A stretch of DNA of 64,000 nt from contig JAAZNF010000007.1 of assembly GCA_012798435.1 (NCBI GenBank), positions 1 through 64,000 of the forward strand, given 5' to 3'. Shown here piece by piece: positions 19,972-32,459 of this stretch. Source of the DNA: Myxococcales bacterium. GTDB lineage: Bacteria; Myxococcota; B64-G9. Numbering within the stretch: position 1 is the first letter of the stretch; every line of letters starts with the position of its first letter. The notes below the pieces were generated by a model. That model did not search any database. It was not told the DNA's origin and saw only the letters and a list, made by a program, of their open reading frames with translations. A program made the position numbers and the translations under genes.

Positions 19972-20901
19972 CTATCCAGCGCGCATCCGGCCCTGCCAGG
20001 TGTCGCGGCGCTCGAGTTCCGCACGGATCTTGTGGATCACGCGGCCCTTGTCGAGCGCCCACCGCGGCGCCAGCATCTGCCCGGCCGGGCCTTCACCGGT
20101 GAGCCGGTGCACCACGATCGCCGGGTCGAGGTACTCCAGGAAGCGCCCCGCCAGCGCCGCGTATTCGTCCATGGAGCTGAGCGGTATCTCTCCCCGCCGC
20201 CACATCGGTTCGAGCGGCGTGTCCTTCAGCACGTGCAGGTTGTGGACTTTCACGCCGGTCACGCCGAGCCGGTTGAGAAGCGCTGCGGTCTCCAAACGGT
20301 CGCCTTCGTCTTCCCCGGGGAAATCCAGGATGAGGTGGGCGATCACCTCCAACCCGCGCTCCCGCGCCCGCCGCGCCGCGTCGGCGAAGTCCGCCACGCT
20401 GTGGTTGCGGTTCATCCTGGCGAGCAGCGGGTCGCTCGCCACCTGCAGGCCGATCTCCAGCCATACGGGCTTTTCTTTCGAGAGCGCACTCAAGAGATCC
20501 AGGACATCGTCCGGGAGAAAGTCCGGCCGGGTGCCGATCGCGAGCAAGAGCACGCGAGGGTGGGCCAGCGCCTCCCGCAGCATCGGCTCCAGCCTCTCTC
20601 GGGGCGCCGCCGTCACCGTGCCGTCCTGGAAGTAGGCCAGGATGCCGCACTCCCTGGCGCGCCGTTCGGCGGCGGCGATTCCGCTCTCGAGCTGCGAGCA
20701 TATCGGGCCGAACGGATCTGGCGCGCGCGGAACCAGCGCAGACTCGCTGCAAAAGAGGCATCCCCCGTGTCCCTTGCGGCCGTCGCGGTTGGGACAGCCG
20801 AAGTTCCCGCGCAGGGTCACGGTGCGCACGGGTTTTCCGAAACGACGTCTGAGGCCGGTGGAGAGGCGGGAATACCGCTCGCCGTCGGGGAAAGGGTTCA
20901 C
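19972..20901 (-). CDS. TIGR01212-family radical SAM protein (YhcC-like)
   Basis: A 309-residue radical SAM enzyme of the YhcC type. The cluster motif is the long-spaced form CPNRDGRKGHGGCLFC seen in this family, preceded by RTVTLRGNFG. Later motifs fit the SAM barrel: IGTRPDFLP, EIGLQVASD and HLILDFPGED. Reaction and substrate of the family are not settled. The GTG start at 20901 overlaps the TGA of the kinase-WD40 gene (GTGA), so translation is probably coupled. Alternative upstream starts lie inside the kinase gene and are rejected. Confidence 0.85.
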   Translation of the reverse strand: MNPFPDGERYSRLSTGLRRRFGKPVRTVTLRGNFGCPNRDGRKGHGGCLFCSESALVPRAPDPFGPICSQLESGIAAAERRARECGILAYFQDGTVTAAPRERLEPMLREALAHPRVLLLAIGTRPDFLPDDVLDLLSALSKEKPVWLEIGLQVASDPLLARMNRNHSVADFADAARRARERGLEVIAHLILDFPGEDEGDRLETAALLNRLGVTGVKVHNLHVLKDTPLEPMWRRGEIPLSSMDEYAALAGRFLEYLDPAIVVHRLTGEGPAGQMLAPRWALDKGRVIHKIRAELERRDTWQGRMRAG

Positions 20902-23900
20902 GGCCGACCCGCCAGGCGGAACCCGTCCAGCCGCAGGCCCAGCGTCTCCTCGCCCTGGCGCAGCAACTCCCGCGGATCGCCGTCGAGGGCGGAGAAATCC
21001 AGCGGATACAGCCGCACCACCGTGCCGTCGCCTACTCCGAGCAGCTTCGAATCCTGCGAGAACTCGATGGCCACCACGCCCCCGCGGCAGGCGATGATCA
21101 GCAGCGGCCGCCCGTCCCGGGCCGACCATACCCGCACCGTGCCGTCATCGCTGCCGGTGGCGAGGAGCTTCCCGTCCGGCGAGAAGCGGACCGAGTTCAC
21201 CCACTGGGAATGCCCCGCAAGCGCGAACACCTGCTTGCCGCTCTCGATGTCCCAGACCAGCGCCTTGCCGTCTTTGCCGGAGGTGGCGATGCGCTTCCCA
21301 TCCGGCGAGAACACCACGTCCGAGATCCAGTCGCTGTGCCCGCCGAGCACCTTCACCTGCTCGCCGGTGCGGACGTCCCATAGCCGCGCGGTGAGATCGT
21401 TGGAGGCCGAGGCCAGGGTGCGCCCGTCGGGAGAGAACACCACCTTGTCCACCGCCTCCCGGTGCCCCTGGAACACCCGGCGCTCCCGCCCGGTGGCGAC
21501 CTCCCACAGCCGTACCGTGCGGTCGGTCCCGGAGGTGGCCAGGAGCGCGCCGTCAGGAGAGAAGGCGGCGCCGTACACCATGTCGCCGTGCCCGCGCAGC
21601 GTGCGCGCCAGCTTGCCGCTGTCTCCGTCCCACAACCGCACCAGCCGATCCCGGCAGGCGGTGGCGATCAGGATGCCGTCGGGGCTGAAGACCACCCGGT
21701 CCACCACCTCGCCGTGGCCGGCCAGGCGCAGCCGCGGCCGGCGCGTTTGCAGATCCCATACCACGGCGCTGCGATCCCAGCCCGAAGTGGCGAGGCGCTT
21801 TCCGTCGGGCGAGAAGGCCATGCCGTAGATTTCTCCGCTGTGCCCGTGCAGCGAGACGAGCGCGGTTTCGGGCGAGAACTCGAACAGGCGCACGCTGCGA
21901 TCGAACGAGGCCGAGGCCAGGTGCTTGCCATCCTGGGAGAAGGCGAGCCCCCACACGAAGTCCTGGTGCACCTCGTTCGCCAGCCACAGCTCGCCGGTGC
22001 CCACCTCCCACAGGCGGATGGACTTGTCATAGCCGGCGGAGGCCAGGAAGCGCCCGTCCCGCGAGAAGGCCAACGCCAGCACGCCGTCGGCGTGACCTTC
22101 CAGTGCCCGTTCCACCGCTCCGGTGTCCATGTCCCAGACGGTGATCTTCTTGCCGTTGTCCCCCGCCAGAAGGCGCCGGCCGTCTGGCGAGAACGCCAGG
22201 GAGAGAACCTCGGCTCCTCGGTCGGCAAGATCGCGCTCGGGCTTTCCGCTTTTCAGGGACCACACGCGCACCCGGCCATCCTCGCCTCCCGAGACGAGCC
22301 GCTGCCCGTCGTGAGAGAAGGCCACCGCGCTGGCCTTGCCCCGGTGAGCCAGGAGCCGGCGCTGGGCCTTGCCGTCGATGCGCCATAGACGCACGCTGCC
22401 ATCTCCCAGGGCGGCGCACACTTCGTCCCCGTTGGGGGAGAATCGCACCGCGTGCGCCGCCGGCCCGCCCGCGCTCAGGCGGCGTTCCTTGCGGGACGGC
22501 CAATCCCATACCGCCACGACGCCGTTGCGACCGCCCGCGGCGAGGTACTCTCCGTCCGGCGAGAACGCGACGGTGAGCACCTTTTCCAGGCCGGCCTCGA
22601 GTTCTCCCGCCGGCTCTCCGCCGGGAAGCCGCCACAAGCGGACGCGCCCGTCGTAACTGCCAGCGGCCAGGAGCGCCTCCTTCGGCGAGAAGTCCACGCC
22701 GGTGAACACCTCCGGCCCGCCGAGGGTCCGCTGCAAACGCAGCAACGAGTGCAGGCGGCCGCGGAACACCAGGGAGGCGGCCTGCACTCGAAGGTCGCGA
22801 CTCCCGGGATGGGAGTCGGCGAACGCCGGCTGGTGGTCGGGCGAACCCGGGTGGGCCGGGTTGTGGAGCAGAGAGGCCGCGGCGAACACCTCCGCCGCCA
22901 GGAAGCGCGAATCCTCCGCCAGCCGGCCGGCTTTCTCTGCGTAGGCCTGCGCCAGGTGATAGCCGGCGGTGAGCCGCTCGGCGTGCTCCTGTGCAAGCGC
23001 CGCCGCCTCGCGTTCGCGGGCCTGGCTCTCGCTCTTCCGGGCGTAAGATTCGTTGCGAAGCGCCAGCGACACCAGCACCAGCGCCACCACGATGGTGAGG
23101 ACGGCCGCCCCCGCGGCCACGATGGCGGCCTTGTTCTGCGCGGCGAAACGGCGGAGCAGCTCGAGGGAGCTATAGCGGTAGGCGCCCACCTTGCCGCCGG
23201 TCATGAAGGCGTTGATCTCGCTGGCGAACTCCCGGGCGCTCTGGTACCGCTCCGCGGGCTCGCGCTGCAAGGCCTTGTGGCAGATGGCCACCAGCTCACG
23301 CGGTGCCGCGGCGCATAGCTCGGTCACCGGCCGTACCGGATCCCGGCCCACGCGGACGATGATCTCCATGGCCACCGCGCCCGGGAAAGGCGGCTGGCCG
23401 GTGAGGATCTCGTACAGCACCGCGCCCAGGCCCCACACGTCCGAGCGCTCGTCGATGGCGTCGATCTGGCCGCGGGCCTGCTCCGGGCTCATGTAGGAGG
23501 GCGTGCCGATGGCCGTGCCGTCGGAGGTCTTGCCCCCGCCCTGGTGCATCAGACGCAGGTCCTTCTCCAGGTCGCGGGCGCGGATGTCCTTCTGTCCTTT
23601 CACCTTGGCGATGCCCCAGTCGAGCAGCACCGTCTCGCCGAACTCGCCCACCATGACGTTCTCGGGCTTGATGTCGCGGTGCACCACGCCGCGGCTGTGG
23701 GCGTAGGCGATGGCGTTGCACAGGTCCCAGAAAGCCCCGAGCAGCTTCAGCCGATCCGGCAGGCCCTGGCAGGCCTTGAGTTTCTTGGCCAGCGTCTCGC
23801 CGCGCACGAATCGCATGGTGTAGTACAGCGTGCCGTCGGCGCGCCGCCCCACCTCGTGGACCGGCACGATGTTGGGGTGCTCGAGCTGGGCGGTGACGCG

Positions 23901-24344
23901 CGCCTCGCGCAAAAAGCGCACCATGCCCGGTGTCGAGCGCATGCTGGAGGGGTAGGAGCCGCTCTCGTCGCGGGCCCCCTCCGTGAGCAGCTCCTTGATG
24001 GCCACGTCACGCCCGATGTGCTCGTCGAAGGCCAGCAGCACCCGCGCCTGCCCGCCGCGGCCGTGGACTCCCTTCACCGTGTAGCGGCCGGCCTGCTCCG
24101 GGCTGACCCGCTCGTCGTCGTCGGCCAGCCGCATCTCGGGCAGCCCCGGATCCACCGAGGTGGGCAGCGGCGGTGGTTCGGCCCCGGCGCCCGGCCAGCG
24201 GCGGGGCTGGCTCTCGCTCACCGTGGGCAGATCCAGGCGTTCCTTCACCCCGCGCGCGGTATTTTCCAGCGGGCCTGGGGTACCCGGCGCTCCCTCGGCC
24301 AGCGTGGGCGAATCCGATCCGGGTATTTTTCTACGTTCGCTCAA
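20898..24344 (-). CDS. Ser/Thr protein kinase fused to 14 WD40 repeats
   Basis: A eukaryote-like kinase of 1,148 residues with a sensor-like WD40 half. After a ~85-residue Pro-rich leader, the kinase domain shows GRGGQARVLLAF, Lys in DVAIKEL, catalytic HRDIKPENVM, DWG in place of DFG, and TPSYMSPEQ. One membrane segment lies near residue 405-430 (AAVLTIVVALVLVSLAL), then a helical region, then 14 WD40 repeats, enough for two seven-bladed propellers, probably periplasmic. The start codon is TTG at 24344 with GAGGCG upstream; the next in-frame ATG is near residue 71 and still before the kinase domain. It overlaps the radical SAM gene by 4 bases. Confidence 0.9.
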   Translation of the reverse strand: MSERRKIPGSDSPTLAEGAPGTPGPLENTARGVKERLDLPTVSESQPRRWPGAGAEPPPLPTSVDPGLPEMRLADDDERVSPEQAGRYTVKGVHGRGGQARVLLAFDEHIGRDVAIKELLTEGARDESGSYPSSMRSTPGMVRFLREARVTAQLEHPNIVPVHEVGRRADGTLYYTMRFVRGETLAKKLKACQGLPDRLKLLGAFWDLCNAIAYAHSRGVVHRDIKPENVMVGEFGETVLLDWGIAKVKGQKDIRARDLEKDLRLMHQGGGKTSDGTAIGTPSYMSPEQARGQIDAIDERSDVWGLGAVLYEILTGQPPFPGAVAMEIIVRVGRDPVRPVTELCAAAPRELVAICHKALQREPAERYQSAREFASEINAFMTGGKVGAYRYSSLELLRRFAAQNKAAIVAAGAAVLTIVVALVLVSLALRNESYARKSESQAREREAAALAQEHAERLTAGYHLAQAYAEKAGRLAEDSRFLAAEVFAAASLLHNPAHPGSPDHQPAFADSHPGSRDLRVQAASLVFRGRLHSLLRLQRTLGGPEVFTGVDFSPKEALLAAGSYDGRVRLWRLPGGEPAGELEAGLEKVLTVAFSPDGEYLAAGGRNGVVAVWDWPSRKERRLSAGGPAAHAVRFSPNGDEVCAALGDGSVRLWRIDGKAQRRLLAHRGKASAVAFSHDGQRLVSGGEDGRVRVWSLKSGKPERDLADRGAEVLSLAFSPDGRRLLAGDNGKKITVWDMDTGAVERALEGHADGVLALAFSRDGRFLASAGYDKSIRLWEVGTGELWLANEVHQDFVWGLAFSQDGKHLASASFDRSVRLFEFSPETALVSLHGHSGEIYGMAFSPDGKRLATSGWDRSAVVWDLQTRRPRLRLAGHGEVVDRVVFSPDGILIATACRDRLVRLWDGDSGKLARTLRGHGDMVYGAAFSPDGALLATSGTDRTVRLWEVATGRERRVFQGHREAVDKVVFSPDGRTLASASNDLTARLWDVRTGEQVKVLGGHSDWISDVVFSPDGKRIATSGKDGKALVWDIESGKQVFALAGHSQWVNSVRFSPDGKLLATGSDDGTVRVWSARDGRPLLIIACRGGVVAIEFSQDSKLLGVGDGTVVRLYPLDFSALDGDPRELLRQGEETLGLRLDGFRLAGRP

Positions 24345-25036: not shown

Positions 25037-25471
25037 TCACATCTTGGGCCGGCGCTCCTCAGAGTAGAGCTGGGCGATCTGGGCGTCCAGGTCCACGATG
25101 GTGAGCTCGTGGTTGCGACAGCCCACCGTGGGGCAAGCGCGCACCTCGCCGCCGTTGGGAAGTTGGATGGCGAACATGGGCACCTGGCACATGCCGCACT
25201 GGGTCTCCACCGAGAGCGACACGTTGCAGTGCGGGCAGTAGGCGTCGACCACGTCGCCCTTCTTCAAGGGCAGGTCGCACTGGTACTCGAAGACGCCGTA
25301 CAGCGGGTTGAAGTGGATCAGCCCCATCTTGCCGCGCAAGCGCACCGCCGCGGTGATGGCCGCCTTGCCCGAGAACAGCTTGCGCCGGTTCATGAGCGAG
25401 CAGCCGTTGGGGCAACGCCCGTCGTGGATGCAGATGCGGCCGGGCGGGATCTTGACCTTGACTTCTTCCAT
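25037..25471 (-). CDS. Cys-rich protein of unknown function in the oxidoreductase operon
   Basis: A 144-residue protein I do not recognise. The N-terminal half has ICIHDGRCPNGCSL and a basic stretch; the C-terminal half has CPHCNVSLSVETQCGMC and ACPTVGCRNHEL, so three or four Cys pairs that look like zinc-ribbon or Fe-S ligands. It starts MEEVKVKIPPGR at an ATG sharing one base with the stop codon of the polyferredoxin gene (TGATG), which argues for coupled synthesis and a role in the same complex or in its maturation. The longer in-frame extension runs through the polyferredoxin gene and is rejected. Confidence 0.75.
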   Translation of the reverse strand: MEEVKVKIPPGRICIHDGRCPNGCSLMNRRKLFSGKAAITAAVRLRGKMGLIHFNPLYGVFEYQCDLPLKKGDVVDAYCPHCNVSLSVETQCGMCQVPMFAIQLPNGGEVRACPTVGCRNHELTIVDLDAQIAQLYSEERRPKM

Positions 25472-25884
25472 CAGCGGTACTCCAGCGCCTTGGCGGGGCA
25501 GAAGGCGGCGCAGGCCGGGTTGCCCCCGCACAGATCGCACTTCTCGGCACGCCGCGTCTCCCGGTCGAAGTGCATGTGGCCAAAGGGGCAGGCGGCCTCG
25601 CACAGGCCGCAGCCCACGCAGCGTTCCAGCGAGACCACCAGGGCCCGGGTGCGCTCGTCGCGAGCGATGGCCTGGACCGGGCACACCTTGGCGCAGGCGG
25701 CGTTCTCGCACTGCAGGCAGGTGATCTGCACGAAGCGCTTCTCGCCCGCCGGGTGGACCCGGATGCGCGCGCGCGCCATGCGCCCCGGGCCGCCATGGGC
25801 GAACGAACAGGCCAGCTCGCAGGTGCGGCAGCCGATGCAGCGCCGCGGCATCACCACCAGGGTGCGCTCGACCGCTCCCACCAC
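25471..25884 (-). CDS. HycB/CooF-like protein with four 4Fe-4S motifs
   Basis: A 137-residue electron-transfer protein. Four Cys motifs are seen: CIGCRTCELACS, CLQCENAACAKVCP, CVGCGLCEAACP and CDLCGGNPACAAFCP, the layout of HycB/HydN/CooF subunits carrying four 4Fe-4S clusters. It likely passes electrons between the oxidoreductase and diaphorase halves or to an outside acceptor. The start is uncertain: the GTG at 25884 fits the family N-terminus and lies 16 bases after the NuoG-like stop; a GTG at 25881 is equally possible. Confidence 0.85.
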   Translation of the reverse strand: MVGAVERTLVVMPRRCIGCRTCELACSFAHGGPGRMARARIRVHPAGEKRFVQITCLQCENAACAKVCPVQAIARDERTRALVVSLERCVGCGLCEAACPFGHMHFDRETRRAEKCDLCGGNPACAAFCPAKALEYR

Positions 25885-25900: not shown

Positions 25901-26653
25901 TCACCAGACCACGCTGGCGAAACGCTGGCTGGCCTGGGACTGCTTGCAGGGCTCGCACACATCGTAATAGTCCTCCGGCAGACCGCGCTTGGCGATGGCG
26001 AAGGCGCGGTGTTTTTCGGTGATCACCGGCTGCCCGCACACCTGGCAGCGGTGGAACTCGAAGCTCTGGCCCCAGATGGTGCGCGCGGCCGGGGTGTCCT
26101 TCATGACGATGCAGCGGGTGGGGCACACCGACAGACAGGCGCCGCACCCCACGCAGCCCTCCGCGGGCTTGCCGAAGGCCGGGCCGACCCGCTTCTTCTC
26201 GCCCCGGCCCACGGCGGCCAGGGCGTTGTGCCCCAGGGCCGCGCACACCCGCACGCACAGCTCGCACAGGATGCAGTTGGCGATCCCCGCGTCGGGCGGC
26301 GGCTGCAAGCGCGGCCGCACCCCCCAGCGCGCGGCCAGCTCGCGCAGCACCGGGCTCCCCGGGGCGCGCAGCAAGAGGAGCTCCAGGTTGGTGGCCCGGT
26401 CGCGGCGGATCTCGGGCGAGTCGGTGCTGATACGCAGGCCATCCTCGGCCTTCATGTTGCACGAGGTGGAGATCCCCGGCCGCGCGCCGGACCGCACCTC
26501 CACCAGGCACAGGCGGCAGGCGCCGATGCTCTCCACCGCCTCGTGGTAGCACAGGGCCGGGATGTCGAAGCCCGCGCGCCGCGCCACCATGAGCACGCTC
26601 TCGCCCGGCTCGGCCTTCACTTCCTGCTCGTCGATGAAAATGCGAATGGCCAT
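25901..26653 (-). CDS. truncated NuoG/HydA-like Fe-S adapter subunit
   Basis: A 250-residue protein like the N-terminus of NuoG or of the HydA subunit of bifurcating hydrogenases, without any catalytic domain. In order: a ferredoxin-type 2Fe-2S domain (ALCYHEAVESIGACRLC with later CNM); no HxxxC-type N5 motif in the linker; CILCELCVRVC and CVGCGACLSVC for two 4Fe-4S clusters; and a C-terminal zinc-ribbon-like CQVCG...CEPC. No H-cluster or molybdopterin motif follows. It should relay electrons from the NuoF subunit to another enzyme, here most simply the adjacent 2-oxoacid oxidoreductase. It starts 7 bases after nuoF, with GAGGCGG as ribosome site. Confidence 0.85.
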   Translation of the reverse strand: MAIRIFIDEQEVKAEPGESVLMVARRAGFDIPALCYHEAVESIGACRLCLVEVRSGARPGISTSCNMKAEDGLRISTDSPEIRRDRATNLELLLLRAPGSPVLRELAARWGVRPRLQPPPDAGIANCILCELCVRVCAALGHNALAAVGRGEKKRVGPAFGKPAEGCVGCGACLSVCPTRCIVMKDTPAARTIWGQSFEFHRCQVCGQPVITEKHRAFAIAKRGLPEDYYDVCEPCKQSQASQRFASVVW

Positions 26654-26660
26654 GGCCGCC

Positions 26661-28508
26661 TCACTCCACCCACACCGCGTCCTGCTTGCACACGTCCAGG
26701 CAGATGCCGCACTTGATACATTTTTTCTGGTCGATGACGTGCAGCTTCTTGACCGTGCCGGTGATGGCCTGCTGCGGGCAGCGCTTGGCGCACAGGGTGC
26801 AGCCGTTGCACTTGTCGTTGATGGTGTAGGTGATCAGCGCCTTGCACACCTTGGCCGGGCAGCGGCGATCACGCACGTGGGCCAGGATCTCCTCGCGGAA
26901 GTACTTGAGCGTCGACTCCACCGGGTTGACCGCGGTGGAGCCGAGCGCGCACAGCGAGGTAGCCTTCACCGTGCGCGCCAGCTCCTCGACGAGCTCGAGC
27001 GTGTGCTCCGAGCCGCGCCCCTCGGCGATGTCGGTGAACAGTCGGTGGAGCTGGTACAGCCCGTCGCGGCAACTGGTGCAGTTTCCGCAGGACTCGAACT
27101 TGAGGAAGTTGAGGAAGTAGCGCGCCACGTCCACCATGCAGGTGGACTCGTCCATCACGATCATGCCCCCCGAGCCCATCATGGCGCCCTCGCGCACCAG
27201 GGTGTCGAAGTCCACCGGGATGTCCAGCTTGGACGCGGGCAGGCAACCGCCGGAGGGGCCGCCGGTCTGCACCGCCTTGAACTTCTTCCCGCCCGGGATG
27301 CCCCCGCCGATGTCGAAGACGATCTGGCGCAGGGAGATGCCCATGGGGACTTCCACCAGGCCGGTGTTGTTCACCTTTCCCACCAGCGAGAAGATCTTGG
27401 TGCCGGTGGACTTCTCGGTGCCGATGGCGCGGTACCAGTCCGCCCCCCGATCGATGATCCAGGGCACGTTGGCCCAGGTCTCCACGTTGTTGATGTTGGT
27501 GGGCCGGCCCCACAACCCCGACTGCGCCGGGTAGGGCGGGCGCCGCCGCGGCACGCCGCGCCGCCCCTCGATGGAGGCGATCATGGCGCTCTCCTCGCCG
27601 CACACGAAGGCCCCGCCGCCGCGGTAGATGCGCAGATCGAAGGCGAAGCCGCTGCCCAGGATGTTCTCGCCGAGCAGCCCCGCCTCGCGCGCCGCGGCCA
27701 CCGCCCGGCCCAGGCGCTCCACCGCCAGCGGGTACTCCTGGCGGATGTACACGCAGCCGGTGCTCGCCCCGATGGCGAATGCCCCGATCAGCATGCCCTC
27801 CAGCACCGAGTGCGGGTTGCCTTCGATCACCGAGCGATCCATGAAGGCCCCGGGATCGCCCTCGTCGGCGTTGCAGATGATCACCTTGTCCGGGCCGGGG
27901 GCGGCCCGGCAGATCTCCCACTTGCGGCCGGTCCAGAACCCGGCCCCGCCGCGCCCGCGCAGGCCCGACTTCTTGACCTCCTCGAGCACCTTCTCGGGGC
28001 CCATGGCGAAGGCCTTGGCCAAGGCCCGGTAGCCGCCCAGGGCCAGGTAGTCGTCCAGGCTGGCGGGATCGAGCAGGCCGTTGTTCTTGAGCACCAGGCG
28101 CTGCTGGTGCATGTAGAAGGGGATGTCCTCTTCCTTCTCGTAGGCCTTGCCGCTCACCGGGTCGCGGTACAGCAGCCGCTCCACCACCCGGCCGCCGGCG
28201 AGATCCTCGCGCACGATCTCGGGCACGTCCTCGGGTTTCACCTTGGTGTACAGCCTTCCCGCGGGGAAGATCAGCACCAGCGGGCCGCGCTCGCAGAAAC
28301 CGTGACAGCCGGTGGCGCGGAGTTCGATCTTTCCCTTCAGGGAGGCCTTGGCGAGCTCGGCCTCGAACACCGGCAAGAGTTTCGCCGAGCCGAAGGCCTT
28401 GCAGCCAGTCCCGGCGCACACCGCCACCGCGCGCCGATCGGGGGCGCGCCCGGCGGCCACCTTGTGGCGGTAGGATTCCAGGTCCTTTTCGCTCGAAAAG
28501 CGCGGCAT
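26661..28508 (-). CDS. nuoF: NuoF/HydB-type NAD(H)- and FMN-binding diaphorase subunit
   Basis: A 615-residue diaphorase subunit of the extended HydB type found in electron-bifurcating enzymes, longer than the ~430-residue complex I NuoF. It has an N-terminal thioredoxin-like 2Fe-2S domain (Cys31, 36, 68 and 72), the FMN/NAD core (GLRGRGGAGFWTGRKW, GDPGAFMDRS), the N3-type 4Fe-4S motif ESCGNCTSCRDG, and a C-terminal 2[4Fe-4S] domain (CNGCTLCAKRCP, CIKCGICLDVCK). It oxidises NADH or reduces NAD+. The ATG shares one base with the nuoE stop (TGATG). Neighbours are a 2-oxoacid:ferredoxin oxidoreductase rather than a hydrogenase or complex I. Confidence 0.93.
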   Translation of the reverse strand: MPRFSSEKDLESYRHKVAAGRAPDRRAVAVCAGTGCKAFGSAKLLPVFEAELAKASLKGKIELRATGCHGFCERGPLVLIFPAGRLYTKVKPEDVPEIVREDLAGGRVVERLLYRDPVSGKAYEKEEDIPFYMHQQRLVLKNNGLLDPASLDDYLALGGYRALAKAFAMGPEKVLEEVKKSGLRGRGGAGFWTGRKWEICRAAPGPDKVIICNADEGDPGAFMDRSVIEGNPHSVLEGMLIGAFAIGASTGCVYIRQEYPLAVERLGRAVAAAREAGLLGENILGSGFAFDLRIYRGGGAFVCGEESAMIASIEGRRGVPRRRPPYPAQSGLWGRPTNINNVETWANVPWIIDRGADWYRAIGTEKSTGTKIFSLVGKVNNTGLVEVPMGISLRQIVFDIGGGIPGGKKFKAVQTGGPSGGCLPASKLDIPVDFDTLVREGAMMGSGGMIVMDESTCMVDVARYFLNFLKFESCGNCTSCRDGLYQLHRLFTDIAEGRGSEHTLELVEELARTVKATSLCALGSTAVNPVESTLKYFREEILAHVRDRRCPAKVCKALITYTINDKCNGCTLCAKRCPQQAITGTVKKLHVIDQKKCIKCGICLDVCKQDAVWVE

Positions 28509-29002
28509 CAGGATTTCCCTTCCTTGAGCACGGAGTCCACCAGCTTGGGCAGCCGGCCGGTGGTCATGTTGCCGTGGTATTCGCCGTCCACGATGAGCAG
28601 CGGCCCCAGCGCGCAGGCCCCCACGCAGTTCACCGTCTCCAAAGTCACCGAGAGGTCGGGCGTGGTGCCACCGGCGCGGACCTTCAGGTCGCGCTCGAGT
28701 TGGTCGAGGAGCTTGGGCGCGCCGCGCACGTGGCAGGCGGTGCCCATGCACACGGTGCACACGTGCTTGCCGCGCGGCTTGAGGTGGAAGCCCTCGTAGA
28801 AGGTGGCCACTCCGAACACCTGGGCCTGGGAGATCTGGAGGTGCTCCGCGGCGAGCTTCAGCGCCTCCTCGGGCAGGTAGCGGAACTCGGCCTGCAGGTC
28901 GTGCAGCACGTTCACCAGCGCGCCGGCGTCGCCGGCGGGGTGCCGCGACAGGATCTCCTTGACCTTGGCCGTGTCCACGGCCGGTGCGGCGGCGGGGGTC
29001 AT
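28508..29002 (-). CDS. nuoE: NuoE/HydC-like 2Fe-2S diaphorase subunit
   Basis: A 164-residue thioredoxin-like 2Fe-2S protein of the NuoE family, which docks on NuoF and completes the NADH-oxidising module. Cluster ligands are in CTVCMGTACHVRGA and VNCVGACALGP. The N-terminal helical bundle (LVNVLHDLQAEFRYLPEEAL, FGVATFYEGFHLKP) is typical. The ATG at 29002 overlaps the stop of the gamma subunit gene by ATGA, tying diaphorase and oxidoreductase translation together. The upstream in-frame extension runs through the gamma-subunit gene and is not used. Confidence 0.94.
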   Translation of the reverse strand: MTPAAAPAVDTAKVKEILSRHPAGDAGALVNVLHDLQAEFRYLPEEALKLAAEHLQISQAQVFGVATFYEGFHLKPRGKHVCTVCMGTACHVRGAPKLLDQLERDLKVRAGGTTPDLSVTLETVNCVGACALGPLLIVDGEYHGNMTTGRLPKLVDSVLKEGKS

Positions 29003-29548
29003 GATTTCGCTCCTCGGGCCTTGCGCCCTTCCTCGTACCCGGCCTTGAAGGCGGCCACGTTGGCCGGGATGAACTTGGCCTTCTCGGCGAACTCCTCCTC
29101 GATGGCGCGCACGGTGGACTCCAGGCTCACCACCTCGGACCAGCCCACGTACACCCCCAGCATCACCAGGTTGGCGGCCCGGCCGGTGCCGGCCTGCTGC
29201 GCCACCTGGTTGGCGGCCACGTACACCACCTGGCAGTCCTGCCGGTCGGACTTCACCGGCACCAGCGAGGAGTTCACCACGATCAGCCCGCCCGGCTTCA
29301 CCCGCGGGGCGAACTTCTCCAGGCTGGGTTGGTTCATCACCAAAAGCGCCCGCGGGTACACGATGTAGGGCGAGGCCACCGGTTTGTCGGAGATGCACAC
29401 CGTCACGTTGGCCGTGCCGCCGCGCATCTCCGGCCCGTAGCTCGGCAGCCACGAGACCTCCAGGCCCTTCTCCATGGCGGCGTGGGCCAGCAGCTTGCCC
29501 GAGAGCAGCATGCCCTGGCCGCCGAAGCCCGCCATCAGCACTTCGGTG

Positions 29549-29556
<8 letters not shown>
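28999..29556 (-). CDS. 2-oxoacid:ferredoxin oxidoreductase, gamma subunit
   Basis: A 185-residue gamma subunit of the PFOR superfamily. The family signature GFGGQGMLLSGKLLAHAA is near residue 10, then SYGPEMRGGTANVTV and a Rossmann-like core. It helps bind coenzyme A and stabilise the alpha-beta core. The start codon is GTG, overlapping the beta-subunit gene by 8 bases, and the stop overlaps nuoE by 4. The order of delta, alpha, beta, gamma is the one of VorDBAC/KorDABC clusters. Confidence 0.92.
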
Positions 29557-30309
<753 letters not shown>

Positions 30310-30313
<4 letters not shown>

Positions 30314-31434
30314 GCGCGTTCCTTGTCCTTACGCTTTTTTTGCGGCGCGGGCTTCGGGGAGGCGTTCTTCGCTGGCGCGCTCCCCAGCACCTCGCGGATC
30401 TTCTTGGCCACGTCCTCGGGAGACGGCACCACCCCGCCGGCGGTGCCGAGGAAGTCGATGCTCTTCGTCCCCTGGACCGCCAACTTCACGTCCTCCAGCA
30501 TCTGGCCCATGTTCATCTCCACGTCCAGGATGCGGCCGGCCCGGTCCGCGGCGGCGCGGCAGGCCTGGTAGGGGAACGGCGCCAGCGTGATGGGCCGAAA
30601 CAGGCCGACCTTGATCCCCTCGGCGCGCAGCTCGTCGGCGGCCGTCTTGCAGATGCGGTAGGTCATGCCGAAGGAGGTGAGCAGGATGTCGCAAGGCTCG
30701 TCGAGGTACACCGACTCGGAGCGCTGCTCGGCCTCGGTGATGCGCTGCCACTTGGCGGTGAGCTTGAAGTTGTGGCGGTTGCAGGCCTCGGGGTCGAGGT
30801 ACAGGGAGTTTACGATGCGGCGCGGCCGGTCCTTGCAGCCGGTCAGCGCCCAGTCGCCGGGGTCGAGGGGTTTTCCCACCGCCGGCTCGGGGAACTCCAC
30901 CGGCTCCATCATCTGGCCGATCATGCCGTCGCCGATCACCATCACCGGGTTGCGGTAGTTCTCGGCCAGCTCGAAGGCCCGCATGACCAGGTTCACCGCC
31001 TCCTGCACCGAGGAGGGAGCCAGCACGATCAAGTGGAAGTCGCCGTGGGCGGTACCCTTGGTCGCCTGGAGGTAATCCCCCTGGGCCGGCAAGATGCCGC
31101 CCAACCCCGGTCCGGCGCGCATCATGTTCACCAGGACCACGGGGAGTTCGCAGGCCGCGATGTAGGACAGCGCCTCGGCCATGAGCGAGATGCCGGGCGA
31201 GGATGAGGTGGTGAGCACCCGCACGCCCACCCCGGCAGCGCCGTAGATCATGTTGCTGGCGGCCACCTCGGACTCGGCCTGCACGAACACCCCGCCCACC
31301 TCCGGCAGCCGCCGCGCCAGGTACTCGGGCACCTCGCTCTGCGGCGTGATGGGGTAGCCGAAGAAGTGCAGGCAGCCGGCGCGGATGGCGGCCTCGCCGA
31401 CGGCCTCGTTGCCCTTCATCAGGATCTTGCTCAT
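30310..31434 (-). CDS. vorB: 2-oxoacid:ferredoxin oxidoreductase, alpha subunit (VorB-like)
   Basis: A 374-residue alpha subunit closest in my recognition to VorB, annotated as 3-methyl-2-oxobutanoate:ferredoxin oxidoreductase. Landmarks: MKGNEAVGEAAIRAGC, FGYPITPQSEVPEYLA, VQAESEVAASNM, TTSSSPGISLMAEA, GPGLGGILPAQGDYLQATKG and VEMNMGQMLEDV. It binds the pyrimidine side of TPP and the substrate. The ATG at 31434 follows AAGGGGCCGAGCC; a longer in-frame extension lies in the ferredoxin gene. The Lys/Pro/Ala-rich last 20 residues are unusual and probably disordered. Confidence 0.92.
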
Positions 31435-31450: not shown

Positions 31451-31684
31451 TCAGTAGGCGAAGAACTCGTACTGCGTGCCGTCGATGAACACCTCGATGG
31501 CCACGTCCGGGCAGGTGATGGCACACAGCCGGCACCCGATACAGCGGCTCTCGTCCTTGACCTTGGCGAAGGTGTAGCCCTTGGCGTTCATCTCCTTGCT
31601 CATGGCCAGGATCTTCTGGGGACAGGCGTCGTTGCAGCGCTCGCACCCTTTGCAGCGTTCGCGGTTGATGACGATCTTGGGCAT
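31451..31684 (-). CDS. 2-oxoacid:ferredoxin oxidoreductase, delta 2[4Fe-4S] subunit
   Basis: A 77-residue ferredoxin-like subunit with two 4Fe-4S motifs, CKGCERCNDACP and CIGCRLCAITCP. It is the electron exit of four-subunit 2-oxoacid oxidoreductases and here probably hands electrons to ferredoxin or to the NuoG-like adapter. It starts one base after the CooC-like gene stops and lies 16 bases before the alpha-subunit gene. Confidence 0.93.
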   Translation of the reverse strand: MPKIVINRERCKGCERCNDACPQKILAMSKEMNAKGYTFAKVKDESRCIGCRLCAITCPDVAIEVFIDGTQYEFFAY

Positions 31685-31685
31685 G

Positions 31686-32459
31686 TCAGGCTCCCGTGCG
31701 GCGGCCGAGCGGCACGGCCCGGCCGGCCGGTTGGGGTTGTGCGTCCGTACGTCGGATCCAGGGCGGCAACATGATACGCCTCATCACGAACAAGGGCACT
31801 TCCTCTCCCGCGAGCTGCGGGGAATCGGCGAACTCCTGCATGGCGGTGTAGAACACCAGCGGCAGGCCCGAGCGGCGGGAGACTTCCCGTCCCATCCGGA
31901 TGCCTTCCTGGATCACCTCCAGCGTGGTCTCGGTGACCAGGTGACTGTTGGCGATGAAACCGGTGACCTTGAGGCGCGAGGCCTCCTCGATGCCATCGCG
32001 CATGCGCAGGCAGCCCTCCACCGTGTCGGTGAAGGGCCGGCGCGAGTTGATGACCTGCCATAGCTGGTAGGGGGTGTCCCCGAGCGGCTCCACCAGGGAG
32101 GACAGCAGCTTGGCCCCCACCGGGTCGCCACCCACGTCGAACAGGCTGACCTCGTCCGGTGCGGGCCGCAACAAGGCGCGGATCTCGGGCAGCACGATGG
32201 GCAGCTCGGAGAAGCTCTGGGCGCCGGAGGGCACCACCACCCGCACCCCGGCCTCTTCCATGAGAACGCGGGCCTCGCGGCACCGGAAATAGGGGTTGAC
32301 CACATCCAGGTCGGCGATGCTCACCCGGCGGCCGGCGCGGGCCAGGGCCAGTGCGAGGTTCACCGCCACTTCGGTTTTCCCCGAACCGTAGTTCCCCACG
32401 ATCATATGAAGCTTCTGCGAGCAGATGGTTTCGGTGAGTTGTAAGCGCTTTGCCGTCAC
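31686..32459 (-). CDS. CooC/MinD-like P-loop ATPase at the head of the oxidoreductase operon
   Basis: A 257-residue MinD/CooC-type ATPase. Seen: GNYGSGKTEVAVNLA as a deviant Walker A near residue 20, IADLDVVNPYF as switch, and LFDVGGDPVG as Walker B. Relatives insert metals or fold Fe-S and nickel enzymes using ATP; a maturation or assembly role for the downstream enzyme is an inference from position. The start is uncertain: the candidate promoter places the transcript start near 32470, which excludes the ATG at 32495 and favours the GTG at 32459 (a later ATG at 32405 is possible). Confidence 0.8.
   Translation of the reverse strand: MTAKRLQLTETICSQKLHMIVGNYGSGKTEVAVNLALALARAGRRVSIADLDVVNPYFRCREARVLMEEAGVRVVVPSGAQSFSELPIVLPEIRALLRPAPDEVSLFDVGGDPVGAKLLSSLVEPLGDTPYQLWQVINSRRPFTDTVEGCLRMRDGIEEASRLKVTGFIANSHLVTETTLEVIQEGIRMGREVSRRSGLPLVFYTAMQEFADSPQLAGEEVPLFVMRRIMLPPWIRRTDAQPQPAGRAVPLGRRTGA

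Follow-up and report, generated by a model that had tools for sequence, protein, structure and literature searches.

The gene at positions 25901 to 26653 of the DNA analysed here (the window, 64,000 nucleotides) encodes BfuA, an intact and ordinary full-length Type 2 adapter of the Bfu family of electron-bifurcating enzymes, a class that is already known. Its genetic context suggests, with a probability of roughly three in four, that this BfuA serves a Bfu complex with a 2-oxoacid oxidoreductase (OFOR) of the Kor/Oor/Vor type as the catalytic end, and that electrons are split between NAD+ and ferredoxin. The features of the locus are as follows; a paralogous operon that the genome also carries is listed last.

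25037..25471, minus strand: Znp, Cys-rich, 144 aa, ten Cys; no family match, domain fused to BfuC elsewhere
25471..25884, minus strand: HycB/WorS/AorA-like polyferredoxin with four [4Fe-4S] motifs; start uncertain (GTG at 25884 or 25881, or ATG at 25962)
25901..26653, minus strand: BfuA, Type 2 adapter, 250 aa (ORF, Pfam, 9mqx_A sequence match, homolog alignment, fold match)
25946..26047, minus strand: BfuA C-terminal ribbon, CxxC-x26-CxxC, C203/C206/C233/C236 (counterpart in 9mqx_A and HycF)
26123..26275, minus strand: BfuA two [4Fe-4S] motifs, C127-C137 and C167-C177 (Pfam, homolog alignment, Cys positions)
26459..26551, minus strand: BfuA N-terminal [2Fe-2S] site, C35/C46/C49/C65 (Pfam, homolog alignment, Cys positions)
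26661..28508, minus strand: BfuB, NuoF-like FMN/NADH subunit, 615 aa; N-terminal [2Fe-2S], two C-terminal [4Fe-4S]
28508..29002, minus strand: BfuC, NuoE-like [2Fe-2S] subunit, 164 aa (Pfam/NCBIfam, 9mqx_C match)
28999..29556, minus strand: VorC/KorC, OFOR gamma (Pfam, NCBIfam)
29549..30313, minus strand: VorA/KorB, OFOR beta, TPP-binding (Pfam, NCBIfam, solved relatives)
30310..31434, minus strand: VorB/KorA, OFOR alpha (Pfam, NCBIfam, solved relatives)
31451..31684, minus strand: VorD/OorD-like, OFOR delta, 77 aa, two [4Fe-4S] (sequence comparison, Cys positions)
31686..32459, minus strand: CbiA/ParA-type P-loop NTPase, first gene of the block; start codon uncertain (Pfam/NCBIfam, conserved order)
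L030:1429-6873, contig C120: paralogous operon in the same genome

The BfuA adapter and its C-terminal ribbon

The bfuA reading frame is intact, with an ATG start and 250 codons on the minus strand, and the plus-strand reading of 25901-26653 is meaningless. As eight further genomes encode, at the corresponding place in the operon, homologs of equal length and 59-63% identity, the frame is not a chance feature. The sequence-only reading of this DNA had described a 250-residue subunit that combines a [2Fe-2S] domain with two 4Fe-4S motifs, and the ligand sets of all three were located, both of the latter having the form CxxCxxCxxxC. By analogy, the [2Fe-2S] site would be cluster A1, and the two [4Fe-4S] motifs would be A2/A4. 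The three sites and the ribbon, which had likewise been recognised as zinc-ribbon-like, account for every Cys in the protein except C181. Residues 66-126, where NuoG has the HxxxC ligands of N5, include no Cys or His, hence the N5 set is missing from BfuA as had been stated, and the Pfam search identified Fer2_4 and Fer4 domains only, in agreement with the further statement that there is no H-cluster or molybdopterin domain.

BfuA was found to match 9mqx_A (247 aa) from end to end, the ribbon included (E 5.9e-43; residues 5-245 aligned), and the same chain was the best fold match, over the full length, of an AlphaFold (AF2) model of BfuA built on 16 homologs (pLDDT 89.7; TM 0.83/0.84). The Foldseek title of 9MQX is electron-bifurcating tungstopyranopterin aldehyde oxidoreductase, and the proteins encoded by the neighbouring genes also match its chains (BfuB, 9mqx_B; BfuC, 9mqx_C; the HycB-like protein, 9mqx_E). 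Taking the titles together with PMC13328260, we read 9MQX as the Acetomicrobium mobile Wor-Bfu enzyme and chain E as its WorS. In PMC9304861, the Type 2 BfuA class is defined by the absence of A3 (HxxxC) and A5, and extra subunits that feed electrons to BfuA handle the third substrate; the window BfuA, with [2Fe-2S] and [4Fe-4S] domains only, neither A3 nor A5, and OFOR genes adjacent, conforms to this description. The models for NuoG of complex I (TIGR01973; 86.9 against a cut-off of 470 bits; no N5 motif), [FeFe] hydrogenase HydA (NF040763; 111 against 765 bits; N-terminal and ferredoxin parts only, no H-cluster domain) and HoxU (PRK07569; 95.2 against a cut-off of 333 bits) each match only in part and fall far below their cut-offs, and membership of these families was rejected. 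As the stand-alone adapter 9mqx_A matches end to end and is of identical architecture, BfuA is an ordinary member of a known subunit family and not, as had been proposed, a stripped one. The related proposal of a connector purpose-built for another enzyme holds to the extent that BfuA stands alone as an adapter, carries no catalytic site and has its gene between those of an NADH module and of a further oxidoreductase, but such an adapter is not unusual.

The four ribbon Cys are invariant in all 16 homologous adapters compared (BfuA and 15 others at 38-63% identity to it), of which nine occur with VOR/KOR, five with POR, one with CODH/ACS (L048) and one on a short contig (L047). The ribbon is also present in the adapter of 9MQX, a tungsten aldehyde oxidoreductase, and HycF, from the formate hydrogenlyase of E. 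coli, was retrieved with a profile of the adapters' C-terminal half (7z0s_F, E 1.1e-13). In HycF, a single metal, provisionally iron, is held by the Cys quartet within an extension which touches HycB near FdhF (PMC9474812), and in the window a HycB-family gene directly follows that for BfuA. The ribbon is missing from the BfuA-like adapter of the paralogous OFOR operon that lacks BfuBC (L030 type), in which the C-terminus differs. The suggestion that the ribbon had been gained for docking the Vor delta subunit is thus contradicted both by its occurrence with several catalytic modules, HycF included, and by its absence from the L030-type OFOR adapter, and the distribution over VOR/KOR, POR, CODH/ACS and aldehyde oxidase adapters likewise rules out an OFOR-specific docking device. 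A strict tie to HycB was also rejected, as two local Por-Bfu loci (L031 and L043) keep the ribbon with no HycB match and the L030-type adapter has HycB but no ribbon. The ribbon tracks BfuBC best, the exception being L049-type adapters, which have BfuBC but no ribbon.

The ribbon is most likely a structural, possibly redox-sensing, site for a presumed metal at a presumed BfuA-HycB interface, and neither an electron relay nor specific to VorD. A rubredoxin-like iron site that senses redox state and thereby governs whether the catalytic module is attached has been proposed for HycF, but appears rather unlikely for BfuA; HycF shares the ribbon, with its tentative iron near HycB and FdhF, but even there the sensing role is a suggestion, and the identity of the metal is tentative in both proteins.

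The ten-gene operon and its catalytic end

The ten genes lie in a row in the order P-loop NTPase (ATPase)-VorD-VorB-VorA-VorC-BfuC-BfuB-BfuA-HycB-like-Znp, several with overlapping start and stop codons; no sigma-70 promoter was found in a promoter scan. This order is kept in nine genomes from nine genera; the family contributes eight of these, out of nine members searched, and another family of the phylum one, with the short VorD of L036 located by a separate search. One of the relatives carrying the operon is a groundwater 'Deltaproteobacteria' MAG, placed in Myxococcota by NCBI. A contig scan with a single protein returned two loci only, and the distribution given here is that within the phylum. 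The CbiA/ParA-like P-loop NTPase, which opens the block in all nine operons, likely has an accessory or maturation role, perhaps in cluster insertion or assembly. Downstream of the operon, a 1148 aa ORF (20898-24344, minus strand) resembles a protein kinase followed by WD40 repeats.

As in Por-Bfu, four OFOR subunit genes accompany BfuABC. However, the alpha subunit scored above the cut-off of the VorB model (NF005507) and only 109 vs 550 with the PorA model, the beta, gamma and delta subunits are nearest to 2-oxoacid enzymes of the Kor/Oor type, and 2-oxoglutarate enzymes are among the nearest solved relatives of alpha and beta. A second Bfu cluster of this genome (L031) and one from another family (L043) have OFORs of the PorA/PorB pyruvate type, only about 30% identical, indicating that the two kinds of Bfu cluster use different OFOR subfamilies. 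Because the window OFOR is not of the PorA/PorB type, the locus is called here an OFOR-linked Bfu variant; that PorA/PorB defines Por-Bfu is our own reading. From these matches, the catalytic end is most likely a 2-oxoacid oxidoreductase of the Kor/Oor/Vor type, with 2-oxoacids as the predicted substrate class, and a physical OFOR-Bfu complex would be formed. The combination of parts may be new, as it departs from Por-Bfu as described in the text of the survey and no joint description was found, though some of the loci may appear in its supplementary gene lists.

The HycB-like protein has 16 Cys in four [4Fe-4S] motifs, as expected of a WorS/AorA polyferredoxin, and its best matches are WorS (9mqx_E) and AorA (8c0z_C). 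It also matches the N-terminal part of PadI, the remainder of which matches OFOR beta subunits. The C-terminal helix of AorA drives polymerization (PMC10413684), and this filament-forming helix is absent from the HycB-like protein, the match stopping at residue 167 of 192 of 8c0z_C. As the protein ends at its last cluster, a single wire and no filament is predicted. The nearest HycB paralogs in relatives adjoin tungsten WorL genes, and no WorL gene is found beside the one in the window.

No match to Znp was found in Pfam (above cut-off), NCBIfam, PHROGs, PDB sequences or PDB folds (model pLDDT 80), and a phylum-wide search of 195 genomes returned full-length matches only in the nine that carry the operon. 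In five further Bfu loci (L049 and L064-L067), BfuC carries a Znp domain fused at its C-terminal end. These fusions tie Znp to the Bfu core, and Znp is therefore a candidate Bfu subunit that would sit on the BfuC side of the complex. Distant stand-alone homologs are encoded at L068:9140-9625, L069:8090-8704 and L070:7377-7913 with no Bfu genes found nearby; the L068 homolog has no Pfam match.

Electron bifurcation and the alternatives

BfuB aligned with 7t2r_B over 587 residues (E 9e-241) and has the FMN/NADH domain, SLBB, N3-type [4Fe-4S] and C-terminal 4Fe-4S dicluster of Bfu enzymes, PF01512, PF10589 and Fer4 scoring over their cut-offs and SLBB (E 1.5e-4) below its own. BfuC has the thioredoxin-like [2Fe-2S] domain (PF01257, E 3.5e-46). 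The FMN site, B1 and B3-B5 are kept in BfuB, together with the His and three of the four Cys of B2 (C438, H525, C531 and C536 in the numbering of A. mobile NiFe-Bfu BfuB). The remaining position, C476, is Ala in the window BfuB, which counts against the preferred reading, and A, T, C or V in the orthologs; a published analysis of BfuB reported Thr at this position in about two thirds of sequences. With such variation among orthologs, C476 looks doubtful as an obligatory B2 ligand. A non-Bfu NuoF homolog from the same genome (L032), used as a negative control, lacks C438, the B2 His, C531 and C536.

In a maximum-likelihood tree of BfuB, the operon forms one group together with Por-Bfu and Wor-Bfu (support 100/100), from which the NiFe type is separate; branch order within the group is partly unresolved, and the BfuB of L037 and L038 are placed away from those of the other seven operons. 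No OFOR-linked (Por-Bfu type) member is known to have been characterized biochemically, a point against the preferred reading, and bifurcation is therefore extrapolated from the hydrogenase, formate, NADP and aldehyde members. Judged from the conserved residues, the window enzyme would bifurcate with NAD+ and ferredoxin. A 2-oxoacid and CoA would be oxidized at the TPP site of VorA/B, and electrons would pass from the two [4Fe-4S] clusters of VorD through the four of the HycB-like protein and the two of BfuA to the BfuA [2Fe-2S] cluster, and then to the FMN of BfuB, from which BfuBC would split them between NAD+ and ferredoxin; both the order and the direction are proposals. Delivery of part of the electrons to NAD+ could pull oxidation of the 2-oxoacid forward when ferredoxin is already reduced, and a parallel argument has been published for the bifurcating aldehyde enzyme (PMC13328260).

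The Ala at C476 would also suit an NAD+-linked OFOR that does not bifurcate, in which BfuABC passes both electron pairs to NAD+, as PadH does in phenylglyoxylate dehydrogenase, and ferredoxin is no substrate. NAD+-linked OFORs do exist by family annotation (PadEFGHI), and in the paralogous operon, which this genome also carries, a GltD-like flavoprotein stands beside an OFOR in place of BfuBC. However, all nine orthologs retain the ferredoxin-side features (the B2 His and three Cys and the motifs of B3 and B4), while non-bifurcating homologs lack B2-B5 according to a published survey, which makes this arrangement distinctly unlikely. The enzyme might instead run in reverse, NADH and reduced ferredoxin being confurcated for the reductive carboxylation of an acyl-CoA to a 2-oxoacid. 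Such a direction was proposed for Por-Bfu in gluconeogenesis (PMC9304861). Also in keeping with it, one member genome of the family has a CODH/ACS-Bfu locus that includes carbon-fixation genes. On general thermodynamic grounds, a mixture of NADH and ferredoxin has a higher mean electron potential than ferredoxin alone, which is unfavourable for carboxylation, and we consider the reverse direction unlikely.

The OFOR and BfuABC could also be two co-transcribed enzymes, a 2-oxoacid:ferredoxin oxidoreductase and a BfuABC-HycB-Znp dehydrogenase with an unspecified third substrate, a possibility that counts against the preferred reading. The link between the two is by gene order only, the nearest HycB paralogs adjoin WorL tungsten subunits, and the genome has four AFOR_N matches which a WorS-like wire could serve. 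However, the block is intact in nine genomes, the paralogous operon again joins OFOR, BfuA-like and HycB-like genes with BfuBC replaced, and the genome already has a separate HycB-like gene adjacent to WorL; two separate enzymes are thus quite improbable. More speculatively, and with the odds against it, the complex with an OFOR end could be the first bifurcating OFOR of the Kor/Vor type, with the HycB wire and ribbon-bearing BfuA as a swappable plug and Znp as an undescribed Bfu subunit which has no counterpart in solved structures and might, for instance, hold or gate the mobile BfuC domain on which it acts.

Related loci and known systems

The paralogous operon was found in four genomes (L030, L079, L082 and L083) with the order VorB-VorA-VorC-GltD-like-BfuA-like-HycB-like and no BfuBC, the downstream HycB-like gene being a weak match in all four. 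It apparently encodes an OFOR whose electrical connection is to one NAD(P)H flavoprotein. The Bfu clusters at L049:10443-17200 and L064-L067 encode a BfuC-Znp fusion and a short BfuA with no ribbon; in L049, BfuB and a GltD-like flavoprotein form one fused chain, and a glutamate-synthase-like protein adjoins. This type is possibly a bifurcating glutamate synthase. Wood-Ljungdahl genes are present at L048:137-10929, where BfuC-BfuB-BfuA, with the ribbon, immediately precede the genes for CODH and acetyl-CoA synthase, making this locus a candidate CODH/ACS-Bfu outside Firmicutes.

BfuA itself is thus ordinary, which corrects the impression of a one-off connector, and the operon matters more. Within a single bacterial family, the same BfuA plug is combined with several different catalytic modules and, in the paralogous operon, with an alternative NAD(P) module, while Znp adds a candidate Bfu subunit linked to BfuC by gene fusion. 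If bifurcation is confirmed, 2-oxoacid oxidation would join the Bfu reactions that can be tested by experiment.

Among known systems, HycF resembles BfuA in its two [4Fe-4S] clusters followed by a CxxC...CxxC ribbon and in its partner HycB, but it has no N-terminal [2Fe-2S] domain and is part of a membrane hydrogenase. HoxU of NAD-reducing hydrogenase is, like BfuA, a stand-alone NuoG-type adapter with no catalytic domain, although the HoxU-type chain 5xf9_B aligned only partially (TM 0.54, 176 columns). PadEFGHI and AorABC share with the window a HycB-type wire joined to an OFOR beta subunit (PadI) or an aldehyde oxidase (AorA). They differ from it on the NAD side. In phenylglyoxylate dehydrogenase this side is formed by one flavoprotein, PadH, in place of BfuBC. 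In AorABC it is likewise one flavoprotein, AorC (PMC10413684).

Por-Bfu, as described in the text of Schut et al. 2022 (PMC9304861), likewise has four OFOR subunits and BfuABC with a Type 2 BfuA; relative to that description, the window has an OFOR of the Kor/Oor/Vor type, a HycB/WorS wire of four clusters that lacks a neighbouring tungsten subunit, and Znp. Local Por-Bfu loci, such as L031, differ in having the PorA/PorB pyruvate enzyme. The A. mobile Wor-Bfu (9MQX) resembles the window in the length, clusters and ribbon of BfuA and in the partners BfuB, BfuC and a HycB/WorS-type polyferredoxin. However, its catalytic end is a tungsten aldehyde oxidase, whereas the window has a TPP OFOR with no adjacent WorL, a HycB with no C-terminal filament tail and the additional Znp gene.
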